Below, one piece after another: positions 14,841-50,995 of a DNA stretch of 64,000 nt (position 1 is its first letter; every line of letters starts with the position of its first letter). The DNA comes from Clostridia bacterium (GTDB lineage: Bacteria; Bacillota; Clostridia; RGIG6154). The notes under the pieces were generated by a model. That model saw nothing but the letters and a program-made list of their open reading frames with translations. It did not search any database and had not been told where the DNA came from. The DNA is taken from the NCBI GenBank assembly GCA_017626145.1, contig JAGAJK010000034.1, forward strand, positions 62,001 through 126,000. Direction: 5' to 3'. Position numbers and translations under genes: made by a program.

Positions 14841-16031
14841 TTATTTAATGGTGATACCGTCAATATCAACATCGAAGTAAGGAGCTGAACGCTTTTCTGA
14901 TTCGTGGAAGTATCCGTCAGAAACAACCTCTGTATCAGGTGTGAATGCTGCGTCAGTATCAACGTCAGCTAAATATGTTTCAAGTGTCTTACCGCCAACT
15001 GTGAATGTAGTTGTATCAAATACCTTGATTTCACCTGAAACTAACTTAGCCTTAACTTCGTCAAGCTTTGCCTGTGTGCCTTCTGCAGCAACAGCATCGT
15101 TAAGACCGAGAATCTGAACAACGTCATCGCTTAAGCCCTTACAGAAATCCTGTTCGATAGCTGTTCCTTCCTGAGCTGCCTTGATGATATGTTCAAAGTA
15201 TGGCTGCCAGTTAATCTTTGAAGAAATGAGAGCTGTGTTTGGACCCCAGTGACGTGTGTCTAAGTTGTAAGCAACGTTTGGAATACCTGCTTCTTCACAA
15301 GCCTTAGGAGCACCCTCTGAATCAGCATGCTGGCTGATAAGAACGCACTTGTCTGCGATTAAAGCATTAGCTGTTTCCTTTTCTGCTGCAATGTCGAACC
15401 ATGAGTTTGTGAACTTAACGTCCATTGTAACTGAAGGACAAACATATTTAGCACCTAAATAGAATGATGTGTAGCCTGATTTAACTTCAGCATAAGGATA
15501 TGCACCTACATAACCCATTTTAGCCTGATCAGCAGTAATTTCGCCCTTTTCGATCATTTCGTTGATCTTTAAGCCTGCTGCAACACCTGCTAAGAATCTA
15601 CCTTCGTAGATTGAAGCAAAAGCATTGTAGAAGTTAGGAAGCTTTTCTGTGTGAGCCTTTGTACCTGTTGCGTGACAGAAAATTACATCGGGGAATTCTT
15701 TAGCTGCCTGAATGATGAAGTCTTCGTGACCGAAGCTGTCTGCAAAGATAACATCGCAACCCTGGTCAGCAAGATCAGCTGCTGCTTCGTAGCAATCTGC
15801 TGTTTCAGGAATGTTAACCTTGAAGAGAACCTGTTCGTCTGTGAGACCGAGAGCAGTCTTTGCTGCGTTTGCCGCATCGATGAAGTTCTTGTCGTAGGTT
15901 GAGTTTTCATCATGTAAGAAGATGAAACCAATCTTGAAGTCTGCGTTTTCTTCGCCGCCGCAAGCTGTAAGCATAGCCATTGAGCCTAAAATCATTGCGA
16001 TAGCGAGAACCAATGAAAGTATCTTTTTCAT
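14841..16031 (-). CDS. BMP-family substrate-binding lipoprotein (nucleoside importer)
   Basis: A 396-residue extracytoplasmic binding protein. The N-terminus is a lipoprotein signal: basic start, hydrophobic core, and the lipobox LTAC with the modified Cys at about residue 24. The rest matches the BMP/PnrA family (for example IGFIFLHDENSTYD, GCDVIFADSFGHEDF and the ASIYEGRFLAGVAAG stretch), whose known members bind purine nucleosides. A GGAGGG site precedes the ATG. It follows xpt after about 60 nt, which contains a small hairpin, and is followed by a strong hairpin before the ATPase gene. The purine substrate is inferred from family and neighbour. Confidence 0.9.
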   Translation of the reverse strand: MKKILSLVLAIAMILGSMAMLTACGGEENADFKIGFIFLHDENSTYDKNFIDAANAAKTALGLTDEQVLFKVNIPETADCYEAAADLADQGCDVIFADSFGHEDFIIQAAKEFPDVIFCHATGTKAHTEKLPNFYNAFASIYEGRFLAGVAAGLKINEMIEKGEITADQAKMGYVGAYPYAEVKSGYTSFYLGAKYVCPSVTMDVKFTNSWFDIAAEKETANALIADKCVLISQHADSEGAPKACEEAGIPNVAYNLDTRHWGPNTALISSKINWQPYFEHIIKAAQEGTAIEQDFCKGLSDDVVQILGLNDAVAAEGTQAKLDEVKAKLVSGEIKVFDTTTFTVGGKTLETYLADVDTDAAFTPDTEVVSDGYFHESEKRSAPYFDVDIDGITIK

Positions 16032-16839: not shown

Positions 16840-17313
16840 TCAGTTAAGAATGGCAACAGCTACATTAAGATAGCCGGCAAAAAGAAGCCAGACTATGTAG
16901 GGTATCTGAAGAATTGCCGCCCATTTTGATGTTACGGAAAAAACAAGTGTCATAAGAATTGCTGTTCCGAGAAGAAGGAGAAGCCATACAAAGGCAAACC
17001 AGTAAAGGCCGAAAATAAAGAACCACACAGGCCAGAGAAAGCAGAAGCAGAGATTTAAAATAAAAAATGCGGTGGAAACAAATTTAGCGTCCCGTGTCGC
17101 CTTTGGCGAGGTAAGCACAAGTGCAAGAGAAATCCCCATTAATGTGTAAAGAATTGCCCATACTATGGGAAAAACCAACGCAGGTGGATTAAGAGGCGGC
17201 TTTATCGCCTGTGCATTATAAATCGCAGTTGCACCTCGGGTAAGGTAGCCTGAAAGAAAGCCTGTGCCCACACTTGCAGCTATCGAAAGAAGAAAGGTAA
17301 AAAATTTTTTCAT
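16840..17313 (-). CDS. TspO/MBR family membrane protein (tryptophan-rich sensory protein)
   Basis: A 157-residue membrane protein with five predicted helices, the layout of the TspO/translocator family that binds porphyrins and other hydrophobic ligands. The signature is the PPLNPPALVFPIVWAILYT stretch of helix 2, with further tryptophans in FLWPVWFF and SKWAAILQIPYIVW. A GTGAGG ribosome site lies about 9 nt before the ATG. It stands alone, with the terminator element straight after the stop. I did not find a convincing promoter in the 170 bp upstream. Its ligand in this organism is unknown. Confidence 0.88.
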   Translation of the reverse strand: MKKFFTFLLSIAASVGTGFLSGYLTRGATAIYNAQAIKPPLNPPALVFPIVWAILYTLMGISLALVLTSPKATRDAKFVSTAFFILNLCFCFLWPVWFFIFGLYWFAFVWLLLLLGTAILMTLVFSVTSKWAAILQIPYIVWLLFAGYLNVAVAILN

Positions 17314-17486: not shown

Positions 17487-17515
17487 TTGACTTTTTTGCC
17501 AATTAATGGTAATAT
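17487..17515 (+). promoter_or_regulatory. Promoter of the candidate small RNA
   Basis: TTGACT (17487-17492) and TAATAT (17510-17515) are 17 bp apart, placing a start near 17522, directly at the first hairpin of the RNA. Confidence 0.65.
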
Positions 17516-17520
17516 TAACT

Positions 17521-17605
17521 CATGGAGCAGAGATGCTCCGGGCAACCTTAAAGGTTGGAACATTTTGGTATAGGAAGAGTCGGTTTATCCGGCTCTTCTT
17601 TCTTT
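17521..17605 (+). ncRNA. Candidate structured small RNA or attenuator upstream of glutamine synthetase
   Basis: About 85 nt between its own promoter and a T-rich tail fold into three hairpins. The first (17524-17539) has stem GGAGC/GCTCC and loop AGAGAT. The second (17543-17557) is CAACC/GGTTG with loop TTAAA. The third (17574-17598) is the 10-bp GAAGAGTCGG/CCGGCTCTTC stem followed by TTTCTTT, an intrinsic terminator. Loop AGAGAT obeys the A1/G4 hexaloop rule of ANTAR-antiterminator targets, which in Clostridia often precede nitrogen genes, but the second loop does not. The gene for glutamine synthetase has a separate strong promoter downstream, so this may be a free RNA. I do not recognise a known riboswitch class. 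Confidence 0.55.
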
Positions 17606-17750
17606 ATAAAAATACTGTACCGGGCCACATTTTCAAAGCATCTGTTACAGTATATGGAATATATTTAATAATTATTCCCTTATTTAAAAGTCAACTTTTC
17701 TGAAGAAAAGTTATTCGATGTAAAAGAACGTCGGGGCAATTTGCGCTGTC

Positions 17751-17813: not shown

Positions 17814-19910
17814 ATGAGCTCAGTTACAGAAATTTTCGGCACTATGGTTTTTGGTGACACAACGATGCAGGAACGTCTTCCGAGAGAAACGTATAAAGCA
17901 TTGCAAAAAACCATTAAAGACGGAAAAAGACTTGATATTAACATAGCAAACGTTGTTGCAAATTCTATGAAGGACTGGGCAATAGAGCACGGCGTTACGC
18001 ATTTTACTCACTGGTTCCAGCCTATGACAGGCGTAACTGCGGAAAAGCACGACAGCTTTATTTCTCCTGCAGACGGTGGAAATGTTATTATGGAATTTTC
18101 GGGCAAGGAGCTTGTTCAGGGTGAGCCTGACGCATCCTCGTTCCCGTCGGGCGGACTTCGTGCAACCTTTGAAGCACGAGGCTACACTACCTGGGATCCT
18201 ACCTCTTATGCATTTATAAAAGGTAAAACACTTTGCATTCCTACCGCATTTTGTTCCTACGGTGGTGAAGCTCTTGACAAAAAGACACCGCTTCTGCGTT
18301 CTATGGAAACAATGGGCAAGCAGGCGCTTCGTGTTGTAAAGCTTTTCGGTAACGAAAATGTTACCTCGGTTAAAACAACAGTAGGGCCCGAGCAGGAATA
18401 TTTCCTCATTGATAAGGATATTTTTTACAAGCGCCCTGACCTTATGTATACCGGCAGAACACTTTTCGGTTCAAGACCGCCTAAGGGTCAGGAAATGGAC
18501 GACCATTATTTCGGTACGATAAAAACCAGAGTTGCGCAGTTTATGGAAGAGCTTAATTCCGAGCTGTGGAAGCTTGGAATACTTGCCAAAACTCAGCATA
18601 ACGAAGCGGCTCCGTCACAGCACGAGCTTGCTCCTATATTTACAACAACAAATATTGCAACAGACCACAATCAGCTTACAATGGAGCTTATGCAGAGAAT
18701 TGCAAAGCGTCACAATCTTGTATGCGTTCTTCACGAAAAGCCCTTCTCCTGCGTAACAGGAAGCGGTAAGCATAACAACTGGTCGGTTTCTACAAACACG
18801 GGAAAGAACCTTCTTGACCCCGGTGAAACACCGTATGAGAATGCACAGTTTTTATTATTCCTCTGTGCAGTTTTGAAAGCAGTTGACGACTATCAGGATA
18901 TGATTCGTGTTTCCGTAGCCTCGGCAGGAAACGACCACCGTCTCGGTGCAAACGAAGCTCCTCCTGCAGTTGTATCGGTATTTTTAGGTGATGAGCTTAC
19001 CGAAATACTTGATGCAATTGAAAAGGATTCTGCTTACGATGCCAAGGAAAAGGTACAGATGAAGGTCGGAGTTCATGTTCTTCCGAGATTCCCAAAAGAC
19101 ACTACCGACAGAAACAGAACAAGCCCTGTGGCATTTACCGGTAATAAATTTGAGTTCCGTATGCTTGGCTCATCGGCATCCGTTTCGGGTCTTAACATAG
19201 TTATCAACACAGCGGTTGCAGAAAGCTTGAAGCAGTTCGCAGACCGCCTGGAAAATTCAGAAAACTTTGAAGAAGATTTACATAATTTAATCCGTGAGGT
19301 TATAAAAGAGCATAAGAGAATTATTTTCAACGGTAACGGCTACGACGATGCGTGGATGGAGGAAGCAAAGAAAAGAGGACTTCTTAACTTAAGAACAACT
19401 CCCGATTGCCTTCCATACTATATTGCCGATAAAAATCTTAAGCTTTTTGCAGACCACAAGGTGTTTAATCCCCTTGAGGTAAATGCCCGTTATGAAATTA
19501 AGGTCGAAAACTATACAAAGACCATCGCAATTGAAGCACGTACTATGATTGATATGGTAAACAAGGATATTCTTCCTGCAGTAAGCGGCTTTACAAAACA
19601 GCTCAGCGATGAGATTATATCCAAAAAGACTGCAATTTCGGGAATTGACTGTTCCTATGAAGAGGCTACCCTTCGTACTCTTTCAGAGCTTCTTTCAAAG
19701 GCTTATAAGGTTGTAAAGGAGCTTGAAGAAAAGGTATCGAAGTTTTCAGCTGATAATTATGCAACGCAGGCTATGGCAGATTATTGTAAAAATGACGTTC
19801 TTCCCGTTATGGAAGAGCTTCGTGACACAGTTGACAAAGCAGAAGAAATTTCCGACAGAAAATGCTGGCCTTATCCGACCTACGGCGACCTTCTTTTCGG
19901 TGTAAAATAA
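17814..19910 (+). CDS. glnN: Glutamine synthetase type III
   Basis: A 698-residue cytosolic enzyme that makes glutamine from glutamate, ammonia and ATP. Length and motifs identify the large type III family rather than GlnA: the N-terminal [30 protein letters not shown], then [20 protein letters not shown], the metal-site [23 protein letters not shown], and [10 protein letters not shown] with [16 protein letters not shown] near the active site. An AAGGAGA site precedes the ATG by 7 nt. It is a single-gene unit with its own promoter and terminator. A candidate structured RNA sits 200 bp upstream and may link its expression to nitrogen state. Confidence 0.97.
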
Positions 19911-19954: not shown

Positions 19955-20010
19955 TTTTTGTATTTTAAGATATAATTGTTAAGAAAGCTTGTTAAATTTT
20001 AATAATCTGA

Positions 20011-20462
20011 ATAAAAATAACACACTTAAAAGTGTGTTATCTGTTAAATCCTTCTATTGTTAGTTTTAAACGTATCATCAGGGGTACGGTCCGTTCACCA
20101 CGTGCTCCGACCGCTCTTTGCGGTGCCCGTCGCACAGGTGTACTCCCGACTCCACAGTCCGCAAGCTTTTTGCTTGCGGCTGCTCCGACGAATTTTTCTG
20201 CTTCGCAGAAAGTTCGTCCCCGTATCCGGAGCATAAATAAAAATAACACACTTAAAAGTGTGTTATCCGTTAAATCCTTCTATTGTTAGTTTTAAACGTA
20301 TCATCAGGGGTACGGTCCGTTCACCACGTGCTCCGACCGCCCTTGGCGGTGCCCGTCGCACAGGTGTACTCCCGACTCCACAGTCCGCAAGCTTTTTGCT
20401 TGCGGCTGCTCCGACGAACTTTTCTGCTTCGCAGAAAGTTCGTCCCCGTATCCGGAGCATAA
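20011..20462. repeat. 226-bp tandem duplication beside tRNA-Lys
   Basis: Two copies (20011-20236 and 20237-20462) repeat with a period of exactly 226 bp and differ at only about half a dozen bases. Each begins with a terminator-like hairpin AACACACTT/AAGTGTGTT and continues into a GC-rich, strongly folded block with stems such as CCGCAAGC/GCTTGCGG and TTTCTGC/GCAGAAA. A third unit starts at 20463 but switches after the hairpin into tRNA-Lys. Open frames of 70-94 codons exist on both strands but lack ribosome sites and probably encode nothing. Confidence 0.85.
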
Positions 20463-20501: not shown

Positions 20502-20576
20502 GGTGCACCATCAGGGGTTCGAACCCGGGACACCCTGATTAAGAGTCAGGTGCTCTACCAACTGAGCTAATGGTGC
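20501..20576 (-). tRNA. tRNA-Lys (anticodon CTT)
   Basis: Read on the minus strand this is a 76-nt cloverleaf: acceptor GCACCAT pairs with ATGGTGC, the D arm is GCTCAGTTGGTAGAGC, and the anticodon stem CCTGA/TCAGG holds the 7-nt loop CTCTTAA with anticodon CTT (lysine, AAG codons). The T arm contains the GGTTCGAACCC core. The 3' CCA is encoded. A promoter and a strong terminator flank it. Confidence 0.97.
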
Positions 20577-50767: not shown

Positions 50768-50989
50768 AAAAACACCCTTAAACCGCTTCTGCGGTTCAAG
50801 GGTGCATAATATCAAGCACGGTTCCACCTTGAATTTTAACTCATTTAACCTTTAACGCCAAGGGTACGGCGGTGCATTTCCTCACCGCAGCTCGGGAGTG
50901 GTTTTCACTTAAACTTAGTATAGGAAGCTTCCAGCAATTGCTTCCCTCTCTTTATACCTTATAAAAGCTACTGTCTCCGTCATTGCTTT
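50768..50989 (-). promoter_or_regulatory. T-box leader of thrS (ACC specifier)
   Basis: The minus-strand leader has the T-box order: the AGTA element near GACGGAGACAGTAGC, an AGAGAGGGAAGC segment, a specifier region GTGAAA-ACC-ACTCC in which ACC is a threonine codon followed by the usual purine, the conserved antiterminator AAGGTGGAACCGTG (50817-50831), and a terminator CACCCTT.../...AAGGGTG with a T run (50773-50804). Uncharged tRNA-Thr should favour readthrough. Confidence 0.93.
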
Positions 50990-50995
50990 TATAAT

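Follow-up and report, generated by a model that had tools for sequence, protein, structure and literature searches.

A putative stand-alone terminated RNA upstream of a clostridial glutamine synthetase III gene, and ANTAR-type leaders in its relatives

Upstream of the type III glutamine synthetase (GSIII) gene of a Clostridia genome, a promoter-like site is followed by a short hairpin-rich stretch, an intrinsic terminator and then a second promoter. Does this unit switch GSIII, serve as a target of ANTAR proteins, or yield an RNA of its own? We examined it in the window, a 64-kb stretch of DNA that was analyzed as a whole (G000:C2:62001-126000; source genome G000), and compared it with related genomes. 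Our preferred reading, to which we assign a probability of about one half, is that the unit encodes a short stand-alone, independently terminated RNA of ~80 nt, lineage-restricted and of putative function, as judged from the sequence and its predicted fold.

Promoter, hairpins and terminator upstream of GSIII

A first-pass annotation had described a promoter, a structured RNA, an intrinsic terminator and a second strong promoter in front of GSIII, and all four are present. Promoter P1 (17487..17515, + strand) reads TTGACT-N17-TAATAT with an extended -10 element (TG) and agrees with the consensus at 9/12 positions. It is followed on the same strand by hairpin 1 (17524..17539; GGAGCA-GAGA-UGCUCC), hairpin 2 (17543..17557; CAACCU-UAA-AGGUUG), a 14-nt linker that is unpaired in the RNA fold (17558..17571; GAACAUUUUGGUAU), and the terminator (17572..17600), in which a 12-pair stem with the loop UUUAU is joined to a U-rich tail, TCTTTATAAA, reaching 17605. 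The three-hairpin layout given earlier is borne out, though with different loops: in the favored fold of hairpin 1 the A and U of AGAGAU pair, which leaves 6 bp and a GNRA-type GAGA tetraloop in place of a 5-bp stem with a hexaloop (the alternative), and hairpin 2 folds best as 6 bp with a 3-nt loop, the version with 5 bp and a 5-nt loop being 0.9 kcal/mol worse. Promoter P2 (17751..17779, +; TTGACA-N17-TATAAT, extended -10) follows the terminator after 150 bp, matches the consensus at 12/12 positions, and precedes GSIII itself (17814..19910, +; PF12437, 1.7e-81; PF18318, 1.7e-44; PF00120, 4e-19). The divergent gene on the other side encodes a TspO/MBR family protein (16840..17313, -; PF03073, 2.3e-32).

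Several repeats occur in and around this region. Both strands of the TspO/GSIII intergenic region contain TTAATGGTNAT once, at 17503-17513 (+), over the -10 element of P1, and about 60 bp away at 17442-17432 (-), where a TspO promoter could be; the pair is a possible shared operator, and a third copy lies at 14845. Two perfect inverted repeats, ATACTGTA...TACAGTAT (17612-17619 / 17646-17653) and AACTTTTCT..AGAAAAGTT (17693-17701 / 17704-17712), stand downstream of the terminator and upstream of P2. Farther on, GSIII and a tRNA gene (20504-20576) flank a 226-nt tandem duplication of 98% identity (20010-20461).

RNA folding of 17522-17603 gave a minimum free energy of -34.7 kcal/mol (z = -4.66), equaled by 1 of 1,000 shuffles, and a slightly longer stretch gave z = -4.2. 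The terminator folded alone scores z = -5.6, while hairpins 1 and 2 without it reach z = -3.7, with 4 of 1,000 shuffles equally good. The RNA stretch is also richer in GC than its surroundings (47% vs. 30%). P1 by itself is weak evidence, as seven sites with at least 9/12 consensus matches occur in the 1.2 kb around it (shuffle mean 2.3, sd 1.6), so its significance depends on the combination with a terminator. Such promoter-to-terminator units of 30–110 nt number only two in 64 kb when both strands are counted, one upstream of GSIII and the other in the T-box leader of thrS; together with the folding scores and the GC content, this makes a compositional accident unlikely. The T-box leader (50795-50992, -) is an ordinary known riboregulator. 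Promoter-like site, hairpins and terminator are thus confirmed as real sequence features.

ANTAR-type leaders of clostridial GSIII genes

The first-pass annotation had noted that the AGAGAU loop of hairpin 1 follows the A1/G4 rule of ANTAR targets. As a lead this proved productive for clostridial GSIII genes at large and failed for the window RNA. Among 80 GSIII loci taken from Clostridia, 77 had 150 nt or more of sequence ahead of the gene and were used for counts, and 62 of these carry an ANTAR-type hairpin, aaaggcAANGGCgtcttt (aaaggc-AANGGC-gtcttt), within 350 nt upstream of the gene. Two or more such hairpins, often arranged as a pair of tandem modules, occur in 30 of the 62, for example at L036:2312-2329 and 2416-2433 (loci scanned: L031-L110), whereas the same scan matched once in a control of 167 kb of GSIII coding sequence. 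Across 100 clostridial hairpins the loop reads A (100/100), A (95), N, G (100), G (82) and C (79). In L034, L036 and other leaders read by eye, the 3′ arm of the hairpin also belongs to the 5′ arm of a terminator, and in canonical leaders about 37 nt separate the hairpin from the first base of the -35 box. Published ANTAR hairpins have A and G at loop positions 1 and 4, overlap a terminator, and lie upstream of nitrogen genes that include synthase enzymes for glutamine (PMC3369931); the clostridial GSIII hairpin, as predicted from sequence, fits this description. Rfam searches of nine relatives' GSIII loci matched no family.

Presence of the leader tracks that of the regulator across genomes. 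Of the 50 GSIII-locus genomes searched, 46 had an ANTAR protein, and the four genomes that lack one all lack the canonical leader as well (36/36 vs. 10/14; Fisher P = 0.004, kinship ignored). At least five genomes have the ANTAR gene (L129, L131, L132, L125, L128) and GSIII (L047, L054, L079, L108, L104) on equally long contigs, so the two may be linked at one locus. The widespread ANTAR leader of clostridial GSIII genes adds to the published picture and does not found it, and it is a more useful result than the window RNA.

The window genome seems to be without both leader and regulator. The annotation had advised looking for ANTAR-domain regulators, and none was found: the genome, a draft of 98 contigs that is 95% complete and of which 5% may therefore be missing, contains no PF03861 (ANTAR) protein, whereas 53 of 99 genomes were positive in the same search, G004 of the same family among them. 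The canonical ANTAR hairpin pattern is absent from the window genome, and the ANTAR model gave four weak matches there, all within ORFs, and no site outside ORFs. A PII protein, an alternative nitrogen sensor, was likewise not found in the 95% complete draft. Nitrogen control in this genome looks unusual, with neither ANTAR nor PII found.

The main rival to a stand-alone RNA is that the unit is a relic of an ancestral ANTAR-controlled GSIII leader, whose promoter, hairpin 1 and terminator were left behind after the regulator was lost and P2 gained. The prevalence of canonical hairpins in clostridial loci and the joint absence of ANTAR proteins and canonical leaders speak for it, as does same-family G004, which has both a canonical hairpin, acagcAAAGGCgctgt, upstream of GSIII and an ANTAR protein. 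Details of hairpin 1 point the same way: it lies 36 nt from the first base of the -35 box, close to the canonical spacing, and its loop with the AGC/GCU closing pairs, AGC(AGAGAU)GCUC, matches the eut consensus AGCAANGRRGCUY (PMC3369931) at 11 of 13 positions. However, against a profile of the clostridial GSIII hairpin it scores -6.0 bits (member median 25.9) and ranks 347 in the window, and it does not appear among matches of the ANTAR covariance model up to E 10 with filters off. The letters of AGAGAU satisfy A1/G4, though the favored fold pairs A1 with U6, and A1/G4 arises by chance in 6 of 64 (9%) GC-rich hexaloop hairpins of the window. In the predicted fold the terminator forms alongside hairpins 1 and 2, with neither hairpin excluding it, unlike the overlapping arms of canonical leaders. 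The GSIII upstream regions of G003 and G002, both of the same family, also differ greatly from that of the window; in G003 (GSIII identity 84% across 148 available residues), the gene is preceded by a small HU-like gene (identified by eye). On balance we consider a relic unlikely.

Homologue searches and further rival readings

The window RNA matched no Rfam family, riboswitch or other, at gathering score and nothing credible up to E 10. The candidate sroD (RF00370), which resembles it in size and in a terminal terminator-like hairpin, was rejected as a chance match (14.2 bits, with gathering set at 50; E 4.2). A DNA search of 99 related genomes returned short chance matches and nothing else. 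A covariance model of the RNA, run on 291 Clostridia genomes with strict filters that may lose weak matches, recovered the self-match alone (115 bits), with the next matches at 21–32 bits; eleven of the best non-self matches (E 2e-4 to 0.014) were inspected and rejected as terminators of unrelated genes or chance hairpins. The model matched nothing in same-family genomes G001-G005, and plasmid and phage collections held no match to the RNA. Conservation upstream of GSIII in relatives, which the annotation had made the test of its proposal, was thus not found. The closest relatives compared have GSIII proteins only 56–84% identical to that of the window and none is congeneric, so a genus-restricted RNA would give the same outcome; with no homologue in any genome, plasmid or phage record searched, selection on the RNA cannot be demonstrated.

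This lack of conservation, with P1 being weak evidence when taken alone, would also suit a promoter-terminator pair of no regulatory consequence, for example a short terminated transcript that the divergent TspO/GSIII promoter region yields as a by-product, or an insulator separating the two genes. The occurrence of TTAATGGTNAT on both strands about 60 bp apart is in keeping with such a by-product, since P1 may simply mirror a TspO promoter. Yet two extra hairpins, equaled by only 4 of 1,000 shuffles, would serve no purpose in an insulator, and the unit stands out from its surroundings in GC content. We regard this reading as improbable, too.

Promoter, structured RNA, terminator and GSIII follow one another in order on one strand, as they would in a new ligand- or protein-responsive attenuator, where read-through of the terminator adds P1 transcripts to those of P2. 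Folding argues against it. Truncated transcripts ending before the 3′ arm of the terminator retain hairpins 1 and 2, the 5′ arm pairs only weakly in them (about 0.7 kcal/mol), and we found no antiterminator or other alternative structure that captures a terminator arm before the terminator closes. The position of a 12/12 promoter between terminator and gene further argues that GSIII is not likely to depend on read-through from P1, which P2 would render nearly irrelevant, and no conservation was found. The attenuator proposed in the first-pass annotation therefore lacks support, and we rate any such device as very unlikely. A leader peptide was rejected as well: no ribosome-binding site precedes the ATG at 17522 (MEQRCSGQP, with two Gln codons), and translation from it would be leaderless. 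The RNA is no more complementary to the GSIII 5′ UTR than to shuffled UTRs, 26% of which did as well.

Least probable of all is an active ANTAR target, whether an antitermination site or an EutX/Rli55-like sponge titrating an ANTAR protein through a single hexaloop, which the A1/G4 loop of hairpin 1 and the ability of one hexaloop to bind EutV (PMC8934654) would permit, but which the profile score, the lack of competition with the terminator, the absence of an ANTAR protein and of canonical sites outside ORFs in the 95% complete genome, the closure of the hairpin 1 loop to a tetraloop in the favored fold (Met172 of EutV has been suggested to help exclude tetraloops; PMC8934654), and the failure to find a second A1/G4 hexaloop hairpin with a 5-bp stem in the transcript (hairpin 2 has a loop of 3 or 5 nt) together led us to reject.

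The preferred reading and known systems

Under the preferred reading of a stand-alone terminated RNA, RNA polymerase would start near 17522 from P1, and the transcript of ~80 nt would fold into two stable hairpins and stop at the strong terminator (17600). P2 would drive GSIII independently and give it a 5′ UTR of ~28 nt. We infer that P1 is active, that termination is unconditional, and that any action of the product would be that of a lineage-specific small RNA and not of a switch of GSIII; possible modes of action are pairing through the 14-nt linker or protein binding. This reading rests on a compact, GC-richer unit of promoter, hairpins and terminator, and on the only comparable unit in 64 kb being a genuine regulatory RNA. 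GSIII has its own full-consensus promoter, and in the relatives L031, L032 and G002 the gene is likewise directly preceded by a simple promoter and lacks an ANTAR hairpin. Further support comes from finding no terminator-competing structure, no ANTAR protein and no Rfam match. Counting against it are the missing homologue, a mediocre P1, and complementarity to the 5′ UTR at the level of shuffles. The architecture thus agrees with the free regulatory RNA suggested earlier (a separate promoter, a strong terminator and an independent GSIII promoter), while its regulatory function stays putative.

Should the RNA be produced, it would count as another orphan small RNA next to a nitrogen gene, and the comparative result matters more. 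One may speculate that, in a genus with neither ANTAR nor PII, a lineage-specific, nitrogen-linked small RNA assumed some of the control of GSIII or other nitrogen genes once the ancestral ANTAR leader had disappeared, although we see this as a long shot. With leader and regulator occurring together elsewhere and the window genome seemingly having neither, the idea that ANTAR control of glutamine synthesis was lost and replaced can be tested by comparing related genomes.

The window RNA shares with the ANTAR leaders (eut, nas, ami and the clostridial GSIII aaaggcAANGGCgtcttt) a place upstream of a nitrogen gene and directly after a promoter, a first hairpin whose letters satisfy A1/G4 and which is closed by AGC/GCU pairs, and an intrinsic terminator that follows. 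It differs from them in having no second hexaloop (in E. faecalis eut the second follows within a 5–12 nt linker) and no overlap between hairpin and terminator. Its loop has G at position 2, where 95 of 100 clostridial hairpins have A, and is closed by an A-U pair to a tetraloop; it is also set apart by the separate downstream GSIII promoter and by a genome in which no ANTAR protein was found. Sponge RNAs of the EutX/Rli55 type are likewise short, terminated, hairpin-bearing and near a nitrogen gene. However, they are tied to ethanolamine genes, as the window RNA is not, and in the window case there is no dual hexaloop and no ANTAR protein was found to titrate. Gram-positive intergenic small RNAs, built of a promoter, ~80 nt and an intrinsic terminator, form the third comparison: although the window RNA is a prediction with no homologue or target known, it shares with them its size, a promoter of its own, stable hairpins and the terminator.
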